From Alphaproteobacteria bacterium (GTDB taxonomy: Bacteria; Pseudomonadota; Alphaproteobacteria; Micropepsales; Micropepsaceae): a stretch of 53,859 nt of DNA. The position numbers were made by a program, and so were the translations under genes. Where the stretch lies: contig JANYAR010000101.1 in NCBI GenBank assembly GCA_025361185.1, positions 1 through 53,859 of the forward strand, read 5' to 3'. Below, piece after piece: positions 17,318-39,938 of this stretch (position 1 is the stretch's first letter; each line of letters opens with the position of its first letter). The notes under the pieces were generated by a model that worked only from the letters and a program-made list of their open reading frames with translations, made no database searches and was not told the origin of the DNA.

Positions 17318-17392
17318 GAGCCCGTAGCTCAGGGGTAGAGCATCTGACTTTTAATCAGAGGGTCGATGGTTCGATACCATCCGGGCTCACCA
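17318..17392 (+). tRNA. tRNA-Lys (anticodon TTT)
   Basis: The cloverleaf folds cleanly. The acceptor stem pairs GAGCCCG with CGGGCTC; the D-stem is GCTC/GAGC. The anticodon stem TCTGA/TCAGA encloses CTTTTAA (anticodon TTT), and the T-stem GATGG/CCATC encloses TTCGATA. The discriminator base is A and CCA is encoded (17390-17392). It decodes AAA/AAG. It lies at the junction between the housekeeping part and the glycan genes, so its 3' end is a candidate integration site, but I saw no repeated copy of that end in the window. Confidence 0.97.
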
Positions 17393-20018: not shown

Positions 20019-20327
20019 GGTCGCTCTGATTCCAAAAGAAAAAGGTCGACTGCCTATACCAGAGTCGGCCGGGTCAATCCATGGCGCGCATATCGCGCCG
20101 AGCGTCGCAATTGTTCCCGTCAGATTAGACGAGCCCTATACCCCGGTTGACAGAGTTGACGCAGACAGTGACGGAGGTGGAGGCTCCGGCTCGACTCAAA
20201 TTCTACTGTCGGCAAAGGTCATGTTCCGGGGCAAGAAAACTTGCGATATGACCTTGGTTGCGTTCACAATCTGAACTCGTTAAATCTCCTTGCGCAGAAA
20301 ACACTTCGGTCAATAGAGGCCCGCAAG
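20019..20327 (+). other. 309-bp divergent intergenic region
   Basis: It separates the FkbM-GT2 pair (minus) from the dTDP-3-amino-sugar operon (plus) and should hold both promoters. Tandem TTGACA and TTGACG hexamers lie near 20150-20165, but no convincing -10 follows at 16-18 bp. No terminator, RNA gene or persuasive small ORF was seen. The frame of the aminotransferase extends back to 20241, but without an RBS. Confidence 0.4.
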
Positions 20328-21476
20328 ATGGCCCGTCACGGATTATCAGACCTCATGAACAAAGGCGATGACGTCGCGGCTCCGATACCTTTTGCCTTTC
20401 CCGGCGGTGAAGCCCAGACCCTTCGTGCCGAGATCATGGCTGCACTGGCGCGGGTGGTGGACGGGAACACTTATATACTGGGGCCAGAGGTCGCAACGTT
20501 CGAGAAGTCTCTGGCGGGGTCGTTAGAGGTGAGTGATGCGATTGGTGTCGCATCGGGCACTGACGCGCTTGTGCTGGCGCTGTTGGCGCTGGGCGTCGAG
20601 AGTGGCGATGAGGTAATCACCGTTTCTCATACCGCGGGCGCAACTGTTGCGGCCATCCGGATGATCGGCGCCATTCCCGTTCTGGTGGACATTCAGGAAA
20701 GCACGTATTGTCTTGATCCGGATGCCTTGAAGGGGGCGCTTTCGTCAAAAAGCAAGGCCATTGTTGCCGTTCACCTCTATGGCCACCCGGCTAATGTTGA
20801 AGCTGTCCGCGCCGCAGCGCCCGGTATCCCCGTGGTGGAAGATTGTGCCCAAGCGCAGGGTGCATTGTGGAATGGAAGGCCGGTCGGCGGCCGAGGTGAG
20901 GTTTCGTGTTTCAGTTTTTACCCGACCAAGAATTTGGGCGCGCTGGGCGACGGAGGCGCGGTCGCGAGCAATGATGTCGGTATCGCCACACGTGTTCGCC
21001 AGCTCAGGACTTATGGCTGGACCATGCCGCAATATGCGGAATTGAACCACGGCCGCTGCTCACGGCTAGATGAAATGCAGGCAGCGCTGCTGTCAGTGAA
21101 GTTGAAGATGTTGCCGGACTATGTTGCGCGCCGCCGCGCGGTCGCAGCGCGGTATCGGGGGGGCCTCTCGACGCTGCCGCTGATCCTGCCGCTCGAGAAA
21201 CCGGGCGCTTCTCATGCCTATCATCTCTATGTCTTGCGTTCGGATCGCCGTGATGCGCTGGAACAGTATCTGAGCAGGCGGGGAATCGGCGTTGGCCGGC
21301 ACTACCCATTGCCCGTGCATCACCAGCCCGGGCTTGCAGCCGGGGCCCGTATTCCCGTGCCGCTGACAGTGACCGAGAAAATTGGCAGCGAAATTCTCAG
21401 CCTTCCCATGTTCTCCACCATCAGCGATGAACAGGTTGATCGCGTTATCGCTGTTGTTCGGGAATTTTTTGCATGA
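20328..21476 (+). CDS. DegT-family sugar 3-aminotransferase (FdtB/QdtB-like)
   Basis: Read from the ATG at 20328 (AGAGG about 10 bp upstream), the protein has 382 residues. It has the PLP-binding GTDALVLALLALG at 78-90, VVEDCAQAQGA at 169-179 and FSFYPTKNLGALGDGG with the Schiff-base lysine K201. Next to a FdtA/QdtA-type cupin ketoisomerase, rfbB and rfbA it fits the 3-aminotransferase of dTDP-Fuc3N or dTDP-Qui3N synthesis (glutamate as donor). Sequence does not tell galacto from gluco. It overlaps the ketoisomerase by ATGA. An N-acyltransferase (FdtC/QdtC) is not in the operon. Confidence 0.85.
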   Translation: MARHGLSDLMNKGDDVAAPIPFAFPGGEAQTLRAEIMAALARVVDGNTYILGPEVATFEKSLAGSLEVSDAIGVASGTDALVLALLALGVESGDEVITVSHTAGATVAAIRMIGAIPVLVDIQESTYCLDPDALKGALSSKSKAIVAVHLYGHPANVEAVRAAAPGIPVVEDCAQAQGALWNGRPVGGRGEVSCFSFYPTKNLGALGDGGAVASNDVGIATRVRQLRTYGWTMPQYAELNHGRCSRLDEMQAALLSVKLKMLPDYVARRRAVAARYRGGLSTLPLILPLEKPGASHAYHLYVLRSDRRDALEQYLSRRGIGVGRHYPLPVHHQPGLAAGARIPVPLTVTEKIGSEILSLPMFSTISDEQVDRVIAVVREFFA

Positions 21477-25498: not shown

Positions 25499-26539
25499 TC
25501 AAACCAGGTCCCAGGACAGGGGCGTGCCGCGTTTGGCGTCCTTGCGGAGGATGCGTCCCTTGACTCGATCGAACTCGGCCGGCGGCAAGCCGCGCCCGGG
25601 TCGGATGATCCGGATGTTGTCGGGCCCCAGCACTTCGCCGGCCTTCACGTCGCGCGTAATATAGATGGAGCGGCGGTATTCCTTCGATTTTATTTCTGAT
25701 TCCGTCGCGCCATATCGAACCTCGCCAAGAGATTGCCAGGCACGTTCGGTTTCGGTGACCAGCGCCTCGATCTCCTCCGGCTCGGCGGAAAAGGCGGAGT
25801 CGACGCCGCCGTCGGAGCGCCGCAAGGTGAAGTGCTTCTCAATGACGGTCGCACCCAGCGCGACGGCGGCGATTGCAGCTCCCATTCCCATCGTGTGATC
25901 GGATAGTCCCACTTCGCAACCGAACAGTTGGCGCATGTGCGGGATGGTCGCCACATTGGTGTTCTTCGGCGTGGAAGGATAGCTGCTGGTGCATTTCAGC
26001 AAAACCAGGTCCTTGCACCCCGCCGCACGGGCCGCCGTGACGGCTTCATCCAGTTCGGCGATCGATGCCATTCCGGTGGACATGATGATCGGCTTGCCGG
26101 TGGATGCCGCCTTGCGGATCAGCGGTATATCGGTGTTCTCGAAGGATGCGATCTTGTAGCAGGGCGCACCAAGCTCTTCCAGGAAGTCCACCGCCGTGGC
26201 GTCGAATGGTGAACTAAACGCGATAATTCCCAGTTCGGCGGCGCGCTTGAAAATTGGCGCATGCCACTCCCACGGCGTGTGTGCTTCCTGGTAGAGCTTG
26301 TAGAGCGATGTGCCGTTCCATAGCGGGTTTAGGTTGGCGATATGAAATTCGCCCTCATCCAGGTCCAGGGTCATGGTGTCGGCGGTATAGGTCTGCAGCT
26401 TCAGGCCATGCGCGCCGGCCTGGGCCGCGGCCTCGACGAGCGCGAGCGCCCGCTCTAGCGACTGGTTATGGTTGCCCGACATTTCGGCGATGACGAAGGG
26501 CTGGTGGCCGCGCCCGATATGCCTGTTACCGATCTGCAT
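25499..26539 (-). CDS. pseI: Pseudaminic acid synthase
   Basis: A 346-residue NeuB-family synthase. Condensation of a 6-carbon sugar with phosphoenolpyruvate gives a 9-carbon nonulosonic acid. The segment NPLWNGTSLYKLYQEAHTPW at about 71-90 is specific for the PseI subfamily, and a C-terminal SAF (antifreeze-like) domain follows from about 285 (RRSIYITRDVKAGEVLGPDN). Other family blocks are FVIAEMSGNHNQ and IMSTGMASIAELDEAV. The gene lies 24 bp downstream of pseG. The sequence makes pseudaminic rather than sialic or legionaminic acid the best call. Confidence 0.9.
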   Translation of the reverse strand: MQIGNRHIGRGHQPFVIAEMSGNHNQSLERALALVEAAAQAGAHGLKLQTYTADTMTLDLDEGEFHIANLNPLWNGTSLYKLYQEAHTPWEWHAPIFKRAAELGIIAFSSPFDATAVDFLEELGAPCYKIASFENTDIPLIRKAASTGKPIIMSTGMASIAELDEAVTAARAAGCKDLVLLKCTSSYPSTPKNTNVATIPHMRQLFGCEVGLSDHTMGMGAAIAAVALGATVIEKHFTLRRSDGGVDSAFSAEPEEIEALVTETERAWQSLGEVRYGATESEIKSKEYRRSIYITRDVKAGEVLGPDNIRIIRPGRGLPPAEFDRVKGRILRKDAKRGTPLSWDLV

Positions 26540-26563: not shown

Positions 26564-27652
26564 TTAAATGATGTTTCGGGTGGCAATGTGTTCGATGACA
26601 CGCCGTGTGCCCTTGCCGTCGACAAGCCTGGCGGCGCGTGCGCTCATGGCGGCCAGCAGGCGAGGCCTGGCCAGAACCCGGGCGATCATGTCGGCCAGGG
26701 CGCCCGGTGTCATCCTGTCCAGTTCGCCCAGGTCGATGGCGACACGCGCCTGTGCCAGCGCTTCACAGGCACGCCGCTGATTGTCGGCCATGCTGGTGAC
26801 CAGCGTGGGAAGGCCCAGCCGGCAACGCTCCCAGCTGGTGGCCCCCCCGGCACCGATCGCCAGATCCGCTGCCGCGAAAAGATTCGCGATGCTGGAGGTT
26901 TGGATATGCAGCTTCGCGCCGGGCAAGGCTTGGCACAAGTCGCGGATCAACGGCAGGCGCGCGTTGCTACCGCCGACAATCACGTCTGTTGCAATGGCCG
27001 TGGTATCAAGGAGCAAGAGCGCGCGCAGCGCCAGTTCGGTGCCGCCCTGTGGGTCCGTTCCGCCGAACAGAATATTGAGACGCTTGCCGGAACCAGCCGT
27101 TCGATCCCGCGGCCTGATATCGGCGAATTCCGGTCTCAGCAGGGCATAAGATACCCCAATCAGCTTGCGACATTGCGGGGGGGTTAGCCCCGCATAGCGA
27201 TCGATCCCGATATCCGTGAGATTTTGATCCAGCAGCATGTCACAATCATGACGCCGGTCGGCAAGATCGTCTATCACGAAGATGCCCGCCGCAAGACCGC
27301 GCAAAGGCGTTTCCCAGCGCCGATCCAGCGCATAATGGTCGACCACCATCCAGTTCCAGTGCTGCGGTTTCAATGCATCCAGCGTATCCGCAGCGTCGAC
27401 CTCCTGCGTCACAGCCAGCCAGGACGAATGCGCCAGCTCGCCCATATTCGGTCCAGCGCCTGGTGGCGTCGGCAGGATGGCGAGTTGGTGGCCCTGCGCG
27501 GTGATCTGGTTTGCGAAGGCGGGTGCGAGATCGCGGCAGATGAATTTGGTAGCCCAGCCCTGTGACTTGAGGCTGTTGGCCAGGGTGAGGCAGCGCGACA
27601 AATGGCCTGTACCGATACTGACGGAGGCGTCCGTTCGAAAAGCGATGCGCAT
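26564..27652 (-). CDS. pseG: UDP-2,4-diacetamido-2,4,6-trideoxy-beta-L-altropyranose hydrolase
   Basis: A 362-residue GT-B-fold hydrolase beginning MRIAFRTDASVSIGTGHLSR, the PseG/SpsG opening with the conserved GxGHxxR motif. The nucleotide-binding loop is FGGTDPQGG, followed by IGAGGATSWERCRLGLPTL. It removes UDP from the UDP-sugar to give the free hexose used by PseI. It starts 6 bp after the ATP-grasp gene. If PseH is absent and C4-N is modified otherwise, this enzyme would have to accept the altered UDP-sugar. Confidence 0.9.
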   Translation of the reverse strand: MRIAFRTDASVSIGTGHLSRCLTLANSLKSQGWATKFICRDLAPAFANQITAQGHQLAILPTPPGAGPNMGELAHSSWLAVTQEVDAADTLDALKPQHWNWMVVDHYALDRRWETPLRGLAAGIFVIDDLADRRHDCDMLLDQNLTDIGIDRYAGLTPPQCRKLIGVSYALLRPEFADIRPRDRTAGSGKRLNILFGGTDPQGGTELALRALLLLDTTAIATDVIVGGSNARLPLIRDLCQALPGAKLHIQTSSIANLFAAADLAIGAGGATSWERCRLGLPTLVTSMADNQRRACEALAQARVAIDLGELDRMTPGALADMIARVLARPRLLAAMSARAARLVDGKGTRRVIEHIATRNII

Positions 27653-33794: not shown

Positions 33795-35074
33795 GTTGTC
33801 TCCTGCAATTGCCGCAGACTCCGAATCACATCCCGGATCCGCAGCACTCTGCGCTTGCCCGCCCAGCGGATGCGGCGCCAAAACGGCTGCTTTTTTGTAG
33901 TGCCTGCCCGAAATGCGATTTGCACCGCCCATCGAGTGCCGCCCCGGCCCACCTGTCCGCCGCGGTGGATGCCATGCGAACCATCGAACATCACCACAGT
34001 GCCGGCTGGTCCGGTGAAAGCATGTTCCCGCTCCAGAAGCGCGTCGGAAAGATGCGAACCATCGAGCAGGTCGTCGCCGAAATGCGTGCTGCCGCGCAAT
34101 GCGGCCGGCAGGGTGAGAAGGTTGCGGCGGTGTTCGGGCTGCTTGAAACGGGGGCGATAATAGCCCGTCAGATAGTCCAGCTTGTCCTCCGTTAGGGGAA
34201 ATTCATCGCTTGAGGCTGAATCGAAACCGCGCTGCACGGCTGTTGCAAATTGTGGACGTTCCCAAGCATGGCTTCCGGTCACGAAATGAAATGCGCCGTC
34301 CTCTTCTCCCACATCCTGAAGGTAAAGCATCGTCTTGATGATATCGCAGTCGGCATCGAAATGCATGTAAACGGTCTTGGCGGTATCGACGCCGACATCG
34401 CCGTAACAGGACTCGTGCCAGTTCTGCCCGTCGTGAGAATGATCGAGGGCAGCATAACAGAATTCCATCGGCTTTCCCAGATAGGATTCTGCCAGCTTGC
34501 GCAGGCCTAGTTTTTCTGCGGCCCGTTCTGCTGCGGCGGCGCCGGGCGAAGTTGGGGACAGGGGCATGACGCAATGGCGGGTCGGCGCCTTGCGTTTTCT
34601 GACCCGAAGTAGCGCGCGCTCCAGCCAGGTTTTGCACCAGATATCGCGGGCGGCAGCGCTGTCCTGGAAAGTGACAAAGCCGTCACGGCGAATGTTTTCG
34701 AGTCTGCTTAAATCAGCCGATGACAGCGCTTTTAGCGCGCTGTTATGCGCCAACCGGTCACGGCCGCGAACTCGCAGATAGTCCCGCATGCTCTGCCGCG
34801 CGGCCAGAAAAGCGTTGGTGGTGAAACGATGAAAGCCCGGCGCAGCGGTTTCGCCAAGATGGCGCAGGAGGGAATCAATCCGCGGCTCCACTTGCCGTTC
34901 AAACACGAGCAGGCGCTGTTCAGCCGACAGCTCCGCGCGCTCGCAGAGTTGGGCATAGGCAGTTTCGATCTCTGCAATCATGCTGTCGGCTGCCGGATCG
35001 TCTTTGGTTGGCCCCAGTCCGGTGAACCCGGGATGGCTAGCGTAGTCCACAACGGGAAACAGGGTCATGCTCAT
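33791..35074 (-). CDS. Phytanoyl-CoA dioxygenase (PhyH)-like 2-oxoglutarate/Fe(II) oxygenase
   Basis: A 427-residue protein with the expected iron ligands: H238 and D240 in YMHFDADCD, H370 in DGSHGIHRG, and R381 in GGTRWAVQI, which could bind 2-oxoglutarate. PhyH-type oxygenases hydroxylate small substrates and appear in polysaccharide and antibiotic clusters. Here it is coupled on both sides (pseC upstream and FkbM downstream, both ATGA), so it may add a hydroxyl group that FkbM then methylates; that is inference. The N-terminal 200 residues have no obvious motif. The real substrate may be the glycan or its acyl group. Confidence 0.72.
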   Translation of the reverse strand: MSMTLFPVVDYASHPGFTGLGPTKDDPAADSMIAEIETAYAQLCERAELSAEQRLLVFERQVEPRIDSLLRHLGETAAPGFHRFTTNAFLAARQSMRDYLRVRGRDRLAHNSALKALSSADLSRLENIRRDGFVTFQDSAAARDIWCKTWLERALLRVRKRKAPTRHCVMPLSPTSPGAAAAERAAEKLGLRKLAESYLGKPMEFCYAALDHSHDGQNWHESCYGDVGVDTAKTVYMHFDADCDIIKTMLYLQDVGEEDGAFHFVTGSHAWERPQFATAVQRGFDSASSDEFPLTEDKLDYLTGYYRPRFKQPEHRRNLLTLPAALRGSTHFGDDLLDGSHLSDALLEREHAFTGPAGTVVMFDGSHGIHRGGQVGRGGTRWAVQIAFRAGTTKKQPFWRRIRWAGKRRVLRIRDVIRSLRQLQETT

Positions 35075-36267
35075 GAACCTTTCAGGCTCTCGCTGAGCGC
35101 AGAAACAACCCGATCTACATCATCCTCCGTCATGGAAGCATAGAGCGGCAGACTGAGAGTGTGCCCATAATAGTGCATGGCGCCGGGCAACGACAATTCC
35201 CCGTAGCGCTGACGATAGAAAGGCTGTGTATGCACGGGAATATAGTGCACCTGACTGCCCACGCCACGCTGTTTGAGACGTTCCATCAGGCCCCGGCGAT
35301 CGGTATCCAGTGCGTTGAAATTCACCAGCACTGTGCAGAGATGCCAGCCGTGACGGTCCTGCGGGTTGCCCTGTACGTAACGTACGATGGGCGCCAGGGA
35401 CGCAAGCCGCGATTCGTAGCGCTCGGCCAGCGCGCGCCGCCGTTCCAGGAATTTCTCAAGCTTGGCCAGTTGGCTCAGGCCAAGGGCGCAGTTGATGTCG
35501 CTGGCACGGAAATTATGGCTGATCTCGCTGGCCTCGTAGTACCAGGGATTGGCAACGCCATCAGAGGCGAAGGCTAGGTCGCCATTCATGAACGCGGCGG
35601 CTTCCCGCGTCATGCCGTGATTGCGCAGCAGCCGGGCTTCATGCGCCAGCTCGTCCGAGTTGGTTGTTACCGCCCCGCCTTCACCCATGGCGATGGTCTT
35701 CGCGGGATGGAACGAAAAACAGGCGGCAAGGCTGTGAGCGCAGCCTCCGACCGGATCTCTCGCCCCGCCATAGCGGGTGCCCAGGGCATGGCAGGCATCC
35801 TCGATCACCATCAGGCTGTTGTGGTCGGCGAACGCCTTCAGGGCTTCGGGATTGACAATCCGACCGCCGAGATGGACGGGAAACACCGCTTTTACCGCGC
35901 TGCCGCCACGGTTGAGCGCCTCCGCGGCGTGCTCCACCGTCATCATTCCGGTTTCGGGGTCCACATCGGCGAACACCACTTCCAGTCCGGCCAGGATATT
36001 GGCGCTGGCGGTGGCGAGAAAGGTGATGGAAGGCACGATGACTTTGTCGCCGGGCTTGAGACCGGCGGCGCGGGCCGCGAGATAAAGTGCTGCAGTTCCG
36101 CTGTTGCACACGATGGCGTGCCGGGCGTCGACCGCCTTGGCCAGGGCGGTGTCCAAAGCTTCGACAATAGGCCCGGTGGTCAGCCAATCGCCGCGCAGCA
36201 CTTTTTCCACGGCTTCGATGTCATCCTCCTCGATGACTTGCCGAGCGTAGGGAAGAAATCCTGTCAT
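35071..36267 (-). CDS. pseC: UDP-4-amino-4,6-dideoxy-N-acetyl-beta-L-altrosamine transaminase
   Basis: A 398-residue DegT-family PLP enzyme from the ATG at 36267, overlapping the pseB stop by ATGA. Motifs are CNSGTAALYLAARAAGL near 54-70, VIEDACHALGTRYGG at 154-168 and SFHPAKTIAMGEGGAV with the PLP lysine K190. The IPVHTQPFYRQRYG segment fits the PseC subfamily. It transfers an amino group to C4 of the PseB product, making UDP-4-amino-4,6-dideoxy-L-AltNAc. The next expected gene is pseH, but the oxygenase follows instead. Confidence 0.92.
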   Translation of the reverse strand: MTGFLPYARQVIEEDDIEAVEKVLRGDWLTTGPIVEALDTALAKAVDARHAIVCNSGTAALYLAARAAGLKPGDKVIVPSITFLATASANILAGLEVVFADVDPETGMMTVEHAAEALNRGGSAVKAVFPVHLGGRIVNPEALKAFADHNSLMVIEDACHALGTRYGGARDPVGGCAHSLAACFSFHPAKTIAMGEGGAVTTNSDELAHEARLLRNHGMTREAAAFMNGDLAFASDGVANPWYYEASEISHNFRASDINCALGLSQLAKLEKFLERRRALAERYESRLASLAPIVRYVQGNPQDRHGWHLCTVLVNFNALDTDRRGLMERLKQRGVGSQVHYIPVHTQPFYRQRYGELSLPGAMHYYGHTLSLPLYASMTEDDVDRVVSALSESLKGS

Positions 36268-37328
36268 GCGGACAAAAGCTGTTCCTGCTTCAGCAGGACG
36301 CGGATTTGCTCCACGCTGAGCCATTCCGTGTTGCTGTCGCTGGCATAGCGGTACATCTCCGGCACCCGAACCGCGCCCCGGCTCGTATAGGAGGGGCGGT
36401 TCCAGAATTCGAAGGTGGGTTCGATCACGAAACGGTCCGACAGCTCCAGCGTGGCGCGGGAATCATCATCGGTGATCATCACTTCGTGCAATTTTTCGCC
36501 GGGACGAATGCCCACGATGCGGGTCTCGCAGCCGGGAAGCATGGCTTCAGCCACGTCGGTCATGCGCACGCTCGGAATTTTGGGAACGAACAGCTCGCCC
36601 CCTTGCATCATTCCCAGCGAACTCAAAACCATGTCGACGCCCTGTTTCAGCGTAATGACAAAGCGGGTCATGCGGGCATCGGTAATCGGCAGGCTTTTCG
36701 CACCTTCTGCGATCAGTTTGTTGAAGAAGGGAATGACACTGCCGCGCGAGCCCACCACATTGCCGTAACGTACCACGGCAAAGCGCGATCCGCCCTTGCC
36801 GGACATGGAATTCCCGGCAACGAAGATCTTATCCGAGGCCAGCTTGCTGGCACCATAAAGGTTGATGGGGTTGGCGGCCTTGTCGGTGGAAAGGGCCACC
36901 ACGCGCTTGACGCCACAACGAATGGCGGCGCGCACGACATTCTCCGCGCCATGCACGTTGGTTTTGATGCACTCGAATGGGTTGTATTCGGCGGCGGGCA
37001 CTTGTTTCAGGGCAGCGGCATGAATCACGTAATCAACACCGCGCATGGCCATTTCCACCCGGTCGGTATCGCGCACGTCACCGATGAAATAGCGCATTTC
37101 CGGGCCGTTCCATTTTTGCTGCATTTCATATTGCTTGAGTTCGTCGCGCGAATAAACAATCAGGCGTCGGGGCTTGAAGCGCTCCAGTACGGTGGCGACA
37201 AACGCCTTGCCGAAGGAGCCGGTGCCGCCGATCACCATGACGTCCTTGTCGTTCAGTTCGCAGACATCCGCGGGGTCGGCATGGCCGAAATTCCGCGCCA
37301 GAAGGGTGTGTTCGCTGTTTTTCGTCAC
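36264..37328 (-). CDS. pseB: UDP-N-acetylglucosamine 4,6-dehydratase (inverting)
   Basis: A 354-residue extended SDR with GGTGSFG at 34-40, HAAALKQVPAAEYNP and the active-site block STDKAANPINLYGASK. This is the inverting (C5-epimerising) dehydratase that opens pseudaminic acid synthesis. Its N-terminal extension before the Rossmann fold is about 30 residues; a later start near GGTGSFG is conceivable but has no better RBS. It is the first biosynthetic gene after the ops-like element, with 118 bp between the antiterminator stop and this start. Confidence 0.93.
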   Translation of the reverse strand: MTKNSEHTLLARNFGHADPADVCELNDKDVMVIGGTGSFGKAFVATVLERFKPRRLIVYSRDELKQYEMQQKWNGPEMRYFIGDVRDTDRVEMAMRGVDYVIHAAALKQVPAAEYNPFECIKTNVHGAENVVRAAIRCGVKRVVALSTDKAANPINLYGASKLASDKIFVAGNSMSGKGGSRFAVVRYGNVVGSRGSVIPFFNKLIAEGAKSLPITDARMTRFVITLKQGVDMVLSSLGMMQGGELFVPKIPSVRMTDVAEAMLPGCETRIVGIRPGEKLHEVMITDDDSRATLELSDRFVIEPTFEFWNRPSYTSRGAVRVPEMYRYASDSNTEWLSVEQIRVLLKQEQLLSA

Positions 37329-37446: not shown

Positions 37447-37950
37447 TCAGGCAGCCGTCACCGATCGCGCATCCAGTACAACACGGACTTGCCGTCCCAA
37501 AAGGTCCAGCAAAACCGAAACCCGCTGTCCGTCGCTCATCGCCTCGAAAAATCCGAGACAGGAAGCAAAAATCCCGTCCATCACCCGGATCGCGGCTCCG
37601 GGCGAGAAGGATGCCGTCCAGGCATGGAAAAAGCCATCCGCGCCTTCCTGTTCGCGCAGGGCCTCCACGATGCCGTGACGGAGGGGCGTTGGTCCGTCCT
37701 TGCCTCCGACCAACGCAATCACTCCGACGGTGGAACGGACCGCCCGCCAACGCTGGTTGGCGGTATCAACAAGCACAAACAGATAACGGGGAAACAGTGG
37801 CCGGCTGACCATATCGACCCTGCGCGCGTGACGGCGCGGCTTGATCAGTTTGGGCAAGTATGTCGTGAAGCCCTGGCGGCGCAGATGCCCCTGCGCTTCC
37901 AATTCCGCGTGTGGCCGTGTTTGTACGACATACCATTGGGCGGCGATCAT
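37447..37950 (-). CDS. RfaH/NusG-like transcription antiterminator
   Basis: A 167-residue NusG paralogue. The N-terminal NGN domain (about 4-100) reads WYVVQTRPHAELEAQGHLRR, followed by RPLFPRYLFV at 50-59 and a C-terminal KOW-like segment from about 118 (GAAIRVMDGIFASC). Specialised NusG paralogues (RfaH, LoaP, UpxY) bind elongating RNA polymerase and let it read through long operons for surface polysaccharides. The gene is second in the 14.7-kb operon, starts by ATGA overlap with the regulator and is followed by the ops-like element. Which of the RfaH/LoaP-type groups it belongs to is uncertain; the ops-like site favours RfaH-like action. Confidence 0.85.
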   Translation of the reverse strand: MIAAQWYVVQTRPHAELEAQGHLRRQGFTTYLPKLIKPRRHARRVDMVSRPLFPRYLFVLVDTANQRWRAVRSTVGVIALVGGKDGPTPLRHGIVEALREQEGADGFFHAWTASFSPGAAIRVMDGIFASCLGFFEAMSDGQRVSVLLDLLGRQVRVVLDARSVTAA

Positions 37951-38558
37951 GCAGCGGCCCTTTTTGGCAGGATAGCGCGCAGAAACGGCGGTATGGCGAT
38001 TCTGTCGGCCCCCAGTGCGTCTTCCGCCATGTCGCGCGCCCGGCCGGTCTGTTCCAGATCGGCAATCACAGCTCCTCCAACGGCTTCTGCGATGGCTGAG
38101 AAGTCGCGATGGAGGGGGAGGCCGAACTTGTGCTGGTCAGTACTGTTCGGATCGACGATGGCCTCAATGCGGATGCCGCGCTCCATGGCGCAGATAGCAC
38201 ATATCTCTGCGAGCGTGGAGGCGCCGACGATGACCATGCTTTCCCACTGCCTGACGGGCTCGGATGCGTAAAGTGCAGCATACTCCCCACGCACCGCGCG
38301 CACAAAGTCCAGCGAGGCGGAAAGGCGGTTCATGGCCAGGCGTGATTTCTCCGCAAAGCCCTTAGGCGTAAGCATATAGCGATAGCTACGTGGCGAGATT
38401 TTGCGTGCCTTGAGGTAGCCCTTGCGAAGGCAGAACTTGAGATAGGCGTTGGTCAAGCCCAGCGCGATGCCAACTTCGGAAGCGCGGCTGCGCTGTGACC
38501 GCTCGCCATCGCGATCAACCGATTCCAGGATATCCAGAATGATTTGGGGCTGTTCCAC
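37947..38558 (-). CDS. Winged-helix (MarR-EPS-like) regulator with C-terminal Rossmann-like domain
   Basis: A 203-residue protein starting with GTG at 38558. Residues 1-75 form a winged-helix domain like EPS-associated MarR regulators (LTNAYLKFCLRKGYLK, then SPRSYRYMLTPKGFAEKSRL). A helix around 80-98 is followed by a Rossmann-like domain (108-195): SMVIVGASTLAEIC, AIVDPN and GAVIADLEQTG, a layout like the nucleotide- or sugar-binding N-domain of PglD-type proteins. It is longer than the usual EPS-associated MarR regulators of about 110 residues. It probably senses a metabolite and controls the operon, of which it is the first gene. The 36-bp palindrome upstream is the likely site. Function is inferred. 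Confidence 0.7.
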   Translation of the reverse strand: MEQPQIILDILESVDRDGERSQRSRASEVGIALGLTNAYLKFCLRKGYLKARKISPRSYRYMLTPKGFAEKSRLAMNRLSASLDFVRAVRGEYAALYASEPVRQWESMVIVGASTLAEICAICAMERGIRIEAIVDPNSTDQHKFGLPLHRDFSAIAEAVGGAVIADLEQTGRARDMAEDALGADRIAIPPFLRAILPKRAAA

Positions 38559-38579
38559 GTGGCGTTTTCAGAGATTCAT

Positions 38580-38596
38580 GGTCTATATTGTAGACC
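38580..38596. repeat. Inverted repeat at the predicted transcription start
   Basis: GGTCTA and TAGACC flank TATTG. It begins directly after the -10 of the operon promoter, so it covers the expected transcription start. It could be a second operator or a small leader hairpin. Confidence 0.5.
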
Positions 38597-38625
38597 AATA
38601 TAACCGTTCACCAAATGAACGTCAA
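38597..38625 (-). promoter_or_regulatory. Promoter of the pse operon
   Basis: On the minus strand TTGACG (38625-38620), a 17-bp spacer and TATATT (38602-38597) are close to the sigma-70 consensus. The -35 and most of the spacer lie inside the palindrome at 38606-38641, so a bound repressor would block the promoter. The predicted start is near 38590, about 30 bases before the regulator's GTG. Confidence 0.7.
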
Positions 38626-38641
38626 CGTTCATTTGGTGAAC
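38606..38641. promoter_or_regulatory. 36-bp palindromic operator candidate
   Basis: The arms GTTCACCAAATGAACGT and ACGTTCATTTGGTGAAC are perfectly complementary, with a 2-bp spacer (CA). Each arm is itself a near-palindrome (GTTC...GAAC), giving four half-sites, as expected for a pair of dimers. It covers the -35 and spacer of the operon promoter and lies 48-83 bp upstream of the regulator, so autoregulation is the best reading. Confidence 0.7.
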
Positions 38642-38921
38642 ATAGCGTTCGTAATATACTGCTTACATTGAATAATATCGAATATAATGATTGGATTGTT
38701 AGCAAATCAATCAGGGGGAGGCGATATTGGAGTTGAAAGACGCCGGTATTATGTGTTTCCGAGCGACTATGTTTATTCTGATTCTTGATACCGGTTGCGC
38801 CCGACCCCCGGCACGGCACGCACTGCTGTTACCGTGGTTGGCCGGCGATCGAAACCAACGATTGCCACAATCGAGCCGCTGAGATGATTGGTTATAGTGC
38901 AGTTGTCTCAGGGGTACCGCT
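38642..38921. other. AT-rich intergenic region upstream of the pse operon
   Basis: It separates the operon promoter (minus) from the glycosyltransferase gene at 38922 (plus). It is markedly AT-rich up to about 38720 (including TATAAT at 38683-38688 on the plus strand, but without a well-placed -35). No RNA gene or credible ORF was found; the plus-strand promoter is not identified. Confidence 0.4.
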
Positions 38922-39938
38922 ATGAGCGTGCACGCCTATTGCACTTATTTCGACCACCGCTATTTGCCGAAAGGCTTGGCGATGATCCGGTCCTTGCGCC
39001 GCCAGGTGCCCGATGCCCAGGTCTGGGTGTTGTGCTTGAATTCGCAGGCCTTGGGCATTTTGCAGGAAATGGACGAGCCTGGTGTTCACGTCATTGCGCT
39101 GCCGGAGTTCGAGATGGGCGACGCCGCACTGACGAAGGCGAAAGCCGATGGCCGCAGCACCATAGAATATTATTTTACTCTTACCCCCTCGCTGGTCTTG
39201 CATGTTGTGCGCGCCGCGCCGGAGGCTGAAATTGTTACTTATCTCGATGGCGATCTGTGGTTCTTGGCCGATCCGGAGCCGGTCTACCGCGAGATGGGCG
39301 ACAGCTCGATCCTGATCATTCCGCACGGCTTCGCGCCCGCGATGAAACATCGCGAACAATACGGCGTCTACAATGTTGGGTGGGTTTCGTTCCGTGCGGA
39401 TACGCGTGGAAAAACCTGTCTGGAATGGTGGCGAGAGCGTACAAATGAGTGGTGCTTCGACCGGGTGGAGGACGGCCGTTTCGCGGACCAAGGCTATCTG
39501 GACCAGTTTCCTCGGCTGTTCGAGGGCGTGCATGTGCTGGCCAACCGCGGCGCCAATCTCGCGCCGTGGAATGTGGCCGCCAGTACGATTTCCGCGCGCG
39601 ACGGCACAATATGGGCGAACGAAGATCGTGTGCTTTTTTTCCATTTTCATGAATTGAAGCGTTTGCTAGGAGGTGAGTATCTCGCCTCACATGGCGCTTA
39701 CAAGGCGCCATTGACGCCTCTTATGCGCGATTGTTTATACAGGCCTTATCTGCGCGAGATATCGGCCATTGAACGGGAGGTGGCGGCGCGCTTTGATGCC
39801 ACCGCGTGCAGTACAATACGTGAGCCGGGCAGTGCGCCCGCGCCCAACCGTGGGTGGAGAGGATGGAGATCGAAACTCAGGAATGCCCTGAGTAGGGCAA
39901 TGAATCGCCGGCGCGGTTACGTGATCTCGCCGGATTAA
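38922..39938 (+). CDS. GT-A fold glycosyltransferase
   Basis: A 338-residue protein with MSVHAYCTYFDHRYLPKGLA at the start, where the nucleotide site is expected, and the DxD-type metal motif in TYLDGDLWF. A later IWANEDRVLFFHFHELKRL segment is typical of nucleotide-diphospho-sugar transferases of the GT8-like group in polysaccharide clusters. It would add one sugar in the cytoplasm. The C-terminal 40 residues are basic. The donor and acceptor are unknown. Confidence 0.75.
   Translation: MSVHAYCTYFDHRYLPKGLAMIRSLRRQVPDAQVWVLCLNSQALGILQEMDEPGVHVIALPEFEMGDAALTKAKADGRSTIEYYFTLTPSLVLHVVRAAPEAEIVTYLDGDLWFLADPEPVYREMGDSSILIIPHGFAPAMKHREQYGVYNVGWVSFRADTRGKTCLEWWRERTNEWCFDRVEDGRFADQGYLDQFPRLFEGVHVLANRGANLAPWNVAASTISARDGTIWANEDRVLFFHFHELKRLLGGEYLASHGAYKAPLTPLMRDCLYRPYLREISAIEREVAARFDATACSTIREPGSAPAPNRGWRGWRSKLRNALSRAMNRRRGYVISPD

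Follow-up and report, generated by a model that had tools for sequence, protein, structure and literature searches.

Several described systems resemble parts of the one considered here. The Rex repressors join a winged helix to a Rossmann domain, and the excerpted account in PMC8836258 describes both their NADH switch and the short bending loop between their parts. The MarR_EPS family (TIGR04176), which is linked by name to exopolysaccharide (EPS) loci, comprises single-domain proteins of about 105 residues that have no Rossmann domain. A domain of WbaP (PF13727), which regulates a membrane enzyme, has a like fold and is reported as a sensor of uridine nucleotides in the excerpt of PMC10942596. 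Furthermore, polysaccharide operons are known to be headed by genes for RfaH- or UpxY-like factors, and Wang et al. 2020 associate the RfaH cluster CL4 with a helix-turn-helix (HTH) regulator, which the extract of that paper (PMC7593976) leaves unnamed, giving neither its family, nor a Rossmann domain, nor an operator. Here we describe a regulator gene (37947..38558, minus strand) in a 53,859-nucleotide stretch of an alphaproteobacterium of the Micropepsaceae (contig JANYAR010000101.1 of assembly GCA_025361185.1; hereafter, the window), which encodes a MarR_EPS-like winged helix, a long helix and a Rossmann domain, and which is followed by an RfaH-like gene and a long series of polysaccharide genes. 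We hold with fair confidence that the best explanation of this locus is a winged-helix autorepressor of an RfaH-polysaccharide operon, equipped with a Rossmann sensor domain. The module is new in combination and built of known kinds, namely a MarR_EPS-type regulator in a Rex-like arrangement; the view of the initial annotation that this control system has no known match was accordingly right in part, with the kinship of the N-terminal half to MarR_EPS and the HTH regulator beside an RfaH cluster in the extract of PMC7593976 standing against it.

The promoter of the regulator gene reads TTGACG-N17-TATATT on the minus strand from 38625 to 38597 (-35 hexamer, 38620..38625; -10 hexamer, 38597..38602) and agrees with the consensus at 10 of 12 positions, as had been noted from the sequence before; a scan of 1.6 kb returned three weaker promoter-like sites besides it. 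Over this promoter lie two 17-nt arms (38606-38622 and 38625-38641) that are 100% complementary and 2 nt apart; among perfect inverted repeats of the window with a loop of at most 5 theirs is the longest, the next having 11-bp arms. The repeat, first described as a 17-bp palindrome of four half-sites, resolves into two exact 15-bp operators of the form GTTCA-N5-TGAAC, of which one (38606..38620) occupies the spacer between the -35 and -10 elements and the other (38627..38641) stands upstream of the -35 element, 21 bp away centre to centre. Exact sites of this kind number three in the window against 0.03 expected from dinucleotide shuffles, and four in the window's own genome: the promoter pair, a site at 20262 that is taken up below, and one at C138:12490, which was set aside as a target, being probably a chance occurrence inside a reading frame that by eye resembles an alpha/beta hydrolase. 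The palindrome was also flagged by the scan as a terminator, a reading we rejected because it spans the promoter and because family members keep the operator but not the long stem. On its other side the operator pair stands 281 bp before a divergent frame at 38922 (plus strand), and the stretch 38642-38921 contains weak promoter-like sites on the minus strand only.

We then examined the upstream regions of related genes. When the single protein served as query, none of 71 candidate stretches was confirmed as a relative; an alignment query then succeeded, confirming 191, of which the best 80 were kept and yielded 79 distinct loci, all of them used. With the window and L010, a second copy in a relative, these make 81 upstream regions that are not independent of each other, five for example coming from close Bradyrhizobium. 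At least one exact operator lies within 300 bp upstream of 80 of the 81 family genes, where mononucleotide shuffles average 0.04. Two exact sites occur in 52 regions, three in 2 and one in 26, twelve of the one-site regions holding a further site with one mismatch, and the sole region without an exact operator (L082) has such a one-mismatch site. In 74 of the 81 regions, all but seven, TTGAC abuts an operator directly (67 of 80 by a stricter count confined to the operator nearest the gene), and in 70 of these 74 a TA follows exactly four bases after the operator; therefore the operator fills the -35/-10 spacer. The common spacer is 18 bp, and in the window an offset of three bases from operator to TA gives 17 bp. 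Thus, the initial placement of the operator over the promoter of the regulator's own operon is borne out by its upstream conservation in the family and, as detailed below, by its travelling with the regulator across genomes.

The finer symmetry of the window fares differently. Neighbouring operators are spaced 21 to 28 bp between centres, with 27 the commonest value (27 of 56 spacings) and 21, as in the window, found four times. The two operators are reverse complements in only 2 of 52 pairs, those of the window and L027, and identical in one more; the perfect 17-bp symmetry is hence real in the window and incidental to the family, and we rejected the idea that mirror symmetry is in itself a signal. 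Similarly, the second inverted repeat that had been noted near the likely transcription start is present (TGGTCTA-N5-TAGACCA, 38579..38597), and arms of at least 7 would arise in that 46-nt stretch by chance in about 1% of first-order Markov simulations, but it has no counterpart elsewhere: of 80 upstream regions, the window's alone has arms of at least 7 just after the last operator. Another repeat, unlike this one and with arms of 6 bp, lies at -46 to -31 in L002. The second repeat may have a role in this species alone. Two observations concern individual loci. In one relative two regulator copies, L010 and L011 (G081:C2, 54384-54971 and 59198-59800), stand 4.8 kb apart, each with an operator pair; and the relative L021 (contig JABDGM010000037.1), which shares the operator pair, belongs to a genome labelled Planctomycetota, which may reflect a misbinned contig or a transfer.

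The tie between operator and regulator extends to a class-wide sample of 385 alphaproteobacterial genomes. The family profile matches in 92 of these, over nearly its full length in 71, the others being short MarR_EPS or partial matches. The promoter-embedded pattern TTGACGTTCA-N5-TGAAC was found in 38 genomes, all among those 71, and in none of the 293 genomes without a match (38/92 against 0/293, Fisher p 2e-27, a figure made optimistic by shared ancestry), and 37 of its 44 occurrences are on the regulator's strand and no more than 300 bp upstream of it. Of 28 loci drawn from this sample, at least five of which were already counted among the 79, 27 have the operator and one (L114) lacks a site. 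Among 72,556 plasmid records a family match was seen in four, two from Chelatococcus and two short MarR_EPS in Aliarcobacter. The genome sample also contains regulator fragments or broken copies with internal stops (G304:C19, G304:C15, G349:C56), as well as MarR_EPS-like winged helices in longer open frames, of 288-343 amino acids in four genomes of one genus, g43 (G131, G258, G355, G431), and of 694 amino acids in G116, which are perhaps other fusions. Based on these comparisons of sequence, we regard the operator site, its position in the promoter, its tie to the regulator and the gene order as well supported, and propose that the regulator very probably acts on its own promoter and thereby governs the RfaH-like gene and the long surface-sugar operon.

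The regulator itself starts with GTG, has 203 amino acids without internal stops and is modelled by AlphaFold as a whole with a pLDDT of 92.5. Along the minus strand its winged-helix DNA-binding part (residues 1-64) corresponds to 38367..38558, a long helix (residues 65-97), delineated from the secondary structure of the model and probably serving in dimerisation, to 38268..38366, and the Rossmann domain (residues 105-200), the presumed sensor, to 37959..38246. The N-terminal half matches PF13412 above its cut-off (23.3 versus 21.9 bits) and TIGR04176 over residues 6-93 with 46.1 bits (E 4.1e-12), short of the curated cut-off of 88. The winged helix aligns throughout with eight MarR_EPS members that exceed the cut-off, at 28-35% identity, and TIGR04176 matches, at E of at most 0.1, every member of a 71-sequence family alignment (A2) assembled from the window, 29 of the best 120 of 520 protein matches and 41 of the 79 loci. 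Moreover, the exact GTTCA-N5-TGAAC lies upstream of 3 of 9 over-cut-off MarR_EPS genes, and a version with a 4-base spacer upstream of one more. Weak matches to TIGR04176 say little, because sub-cut-off matches occur in 7 of 14 control genomes; in the 385 genomes the two groups are set apart by score, with seven above the cut-off (125.6-154.5 bits), the long form mostly at 46-74, and one intermediate at 83.7. On the strength of the alignments the N-terminal half is, as we read it, kin to MarR_EPS by descent, yet outside that family by the curated cut-off, and the protein as a whole differs from it in its length and its second domain.

The second domain, modelled separately, has a pLDDT of 91.1. 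Its relation to the NeuD/PglD proteins comes from a weak match of TIGR03570 to residues 108-158 (E 0.0042; 18.6 bits against a cut-off of 160.8), which covers only the first 54 of 202 model positions and leaves out the acyltransferase half; in this lack the regulator differs from NeuD, PglD and PerB. Together with the PF13412 and TIGR04176 matches and the confidently predicted fold, this match upholds the earlier description of a winged helix fused to a CoA-binding/PglD-type Rossmann domain. For the whole model the first Foldseek rows by E-value were S-adenosylmethionine-dependent O-methyltransferases, which share the order of winged helix and Rossmann domain with the regulator; given a query TM of 0.29-0.41 and a root-mean-square deviation of about 12 we took them as non-specific and therefore predicted the C-terminal part alone, for which Foldseek gave no match at E of 0.001 or better. 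Rex repressors are absent among the 50 best Foldseek matches listed for the whole model, PF13727 is not among the 42 matches listed, and solved-structure sequences searched with the family alignments A2 and A3 gave nothing better than E 0.045 and 0.094, respectively, and so no convincing relative. Against small alignments, hhalign assigned the domain probabilities of 0.9 for PglD_N (6 sequences), 32 for the succinyl-CoA synthetase alpha subunit (13) and 2 for PF13727 (11).

In its order of winged helix and then Rossmann domain the regulator recalls Rex, as judged from the models and fold matches. The dinucleotide-binding loop of Rex is G-x-G-x-x-G, whereas the corresponding loop of the family has the consensus G-x-S-x-L-A-E in A2, its second glycine position being S in 56 and G in 10 of 71 sequences and its third A in 67, and the residue right after the third position, E118, being Glu in all 71. 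Further differences from Rex are the 33-residue helix that joins the two domains in place of a short bending loop (excerpt of PMC8836258), and the polysaccharide genes that are its predicted targets.

We propose that the regulator, probably a dimer, would bind as one dimer per 15-bp palindrome, and that a dimer on the spacer site would exclude RNA polymerase, because one site fills the space between the -35 and -10 elements; its effect on its own promoter is hence likely to be repression. Expression of the polysaccharide operon, and the amount of the RfaH-like factor, would thereby be kept low. As the repressed promoter starts an operon with the regulator gene, the RfaH-like antiterminator and the long polysaccharide genes in that order, a single switch would set both initiation and the supply of an elongation factor. 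By analogy with Rex, the signal is likely received by the Rossmann domain, which caps the long helix; with the signal present the dimer would release, so that its own operon is switched on together with one or more other sugar operons bearing this operator. As to the ligand, our best guess is some nucleotide-type compound, a guess that might equally well fail. Among such compounds a uridine nucleotide or UDP-sugar is tentatively favoured, because the WbaP domain of like fold responds to them (excerpt of PMC10942596) and the clusters appear to make different sugars; sensing of a nucleotide sugar, as first suggested for this domain, is possible. In WbaP, as noted, the domain regulates a membrane enzyme, whereas its partner in the present protein is a DNA-binding domain. 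Sensing specific to the pseudaminate pathway was set aside, being less likely because a match to the window's PseI was found by tblastn in just 17 of the 79 loci, a lower bound as many loci are short. A PglD-like mode of binding is counted against by the invariant Glu, since all six translated NeuD/PglD-like domains (of seven PglD_N matches, L172 being left out) have Arg or Lys in its place.

An alternative that leaves the autorepressor in place holds that the Rossmann domain is only a module for dimerisation or tetramerisation and that the signal is another, such as metal or thiol chemistry at conserved cysteines. Two cysteines are indeed kept in the family (C43 in 70 and C123 in 68 of 71), other residues stand at two glycine positions of the classical loop, and EpsRAc, a MarR-family repressor of Acidithiobacillus caldus, is copper-sensing according to the title of its report. 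However, the family conserves the loop ends that should face a ligand (G112 in 63, E118 in 71, D136 in 56 and D167 in 61 of 71), and C43 has no counterpart in the same column of the eight aligned MarR_EPS sequences. We regard this version as unlikely, and retain the presumed sensor.

More improbable still is that the protein acts as an activator or dual regulator, recruiting polymerase from the site upstream of the -35 element and retuning the promoter from the spacer site. The presence of two sites in 52 and three in 2 of the 81 regions would suit such a role, as would the common spacer of 18 rather than 17 bp, since some activators, such as those of the MerR type, bind spacers of this kind. 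Nevertheless, 26 regions have only one exact site (12 of them with a further one-mismatch site), the spacing between sites is not constant, and the -35 element is near consensus, with TTGAC in 74 of 81, so that no activator would be needed. Finally, the GTTC half-site and its 7-base separation from the other half are reminiscent of the alphaproteobacterial LexA box, a direct and not an inverted repeat, but an operator of LexA or another regulator only indirectly linked to the family is highly improbable given the confinement of the promoter-embedded pattern to genomes with a regulator match and the same exact site before 3 of 9 true MarR_EPS genes, which encode a related HTH.

On the reading of the locus as an autorepressed operon, the genes behind the promoter are its first targets. 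The RfaH/NusG-like gene (37447..37950, minus strand) shares 4 bp with the regulator gene and matches PF02357; TIGR01955 (RfaH) is the best of six families on it at 121.5 bits, and as this lies under the cut-off of 144.5 we call the gene RfaH-like. Its position as second gene of the operon is the likeness to the RfaH/UpxY-headed operons, and a tblastn match to its product lies immediately downstream of the regulator in 76 of the 79 loci; L020 and L039 have no such match in the locus, and in L044 an RfaH-like gene (NusG family by Pfam), preceded at 119 bp by an operator, is found 8.8 kb upstream of the regulator. As read from the ORF lists, codirectional genes continue from the regulator as far as 23850, no gap between them exceeding 118 bp, and include, all on the minus strand and over the cut-offs of their families, PseB (36264..37328; TIGR03589, 531.4 bits), PseC (35071..36324; TIGR03588, 452.5 bits), PseG (26564..27652; TIGR03590, 265.2 bits) and the pseudaminic acid synthase PseI (25499..26539; TIGR03586, 491.4 bits). 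A search of the window with Rfam returned just one tRNA, an RfaH recruitment element not being otherwise looked for. This tRNA gene (17318-17389, plus strand) lies within the polysaccharide region, downstream of what by eye are gyrA and other housekeeping genes, and is a possible insertion point.

The third exact operator of the window (20262..20276) stands 51 bp before the ATG of a DegT/DnrJ aminotransferase gene (20328..21476, plus strand; PF01041, 326.5 bits), a probable second target. Likewise, 1.35 Mb of neighbouring DNA contains 20 operators outside the regulators' own promoters, against 1.3 expected under uniform base use and none for a reversed-arm control; these include two that form the promoter of the regulator copy L010, the one before the RfaH-like gene of L044 and one inside a 666-amino-acid frame (L052). 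Pfam searches with ten proteins downstream of such operators left only that of L046 without a match at 1e-5, and identified class-III aminotransferases (L033, L037), an SDR protein (L033), Gfo/Idh oxidoreductases (L048, L079) and asparagine-synthase-like proteins (L069, L086). Three more operators in the class sample precede frames that by eye resemble an SDR protein, an ABC transporter and an RmlD-like reductase. In Bradyrhizobium a second operator with TTGAC directly abutting it lies before the asparagine-synthase-like gene, 3.4 to 6.3 kb upstream of the regulator, the assignment coming from Pfam in L069 and L086 and, by eye and the same protein start, in L081, L084, L085 and L087; going by this recurrence, we take the gene to be a conserved second target.

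Surface polysaccharides bear on biofilms and symbiosis, and the family heads loci for them in genera that, according to record titles, include Bradyrhizobium, Nitrobacter, Afipia and Methylocystis. Near full-length relatives occur in 71 of the 385 sampled genomes, and we regard the control module as real, conserved and widespread; among the matches listed from the open-access literature we found no experimental account of the family, which is apparently unstudied. With a defined operator, promoter geometry and target list, both the regulon and the signal that opens it become directly testable. We advance only as a speculative extension that the Rossmann domain may read a uridine nucleotide or UDP-sugar as a class-wide precursor sensor, so that across the Alphaproteobacteria one repressor would gate surface polysaccharide operons at initiation as well as in their RfaH-type control of elongation. 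If true, such a sensor would do at the level of transcription what the excerpt of PMC10942596 reports for WbaP, namely control by uridine nucleotides.
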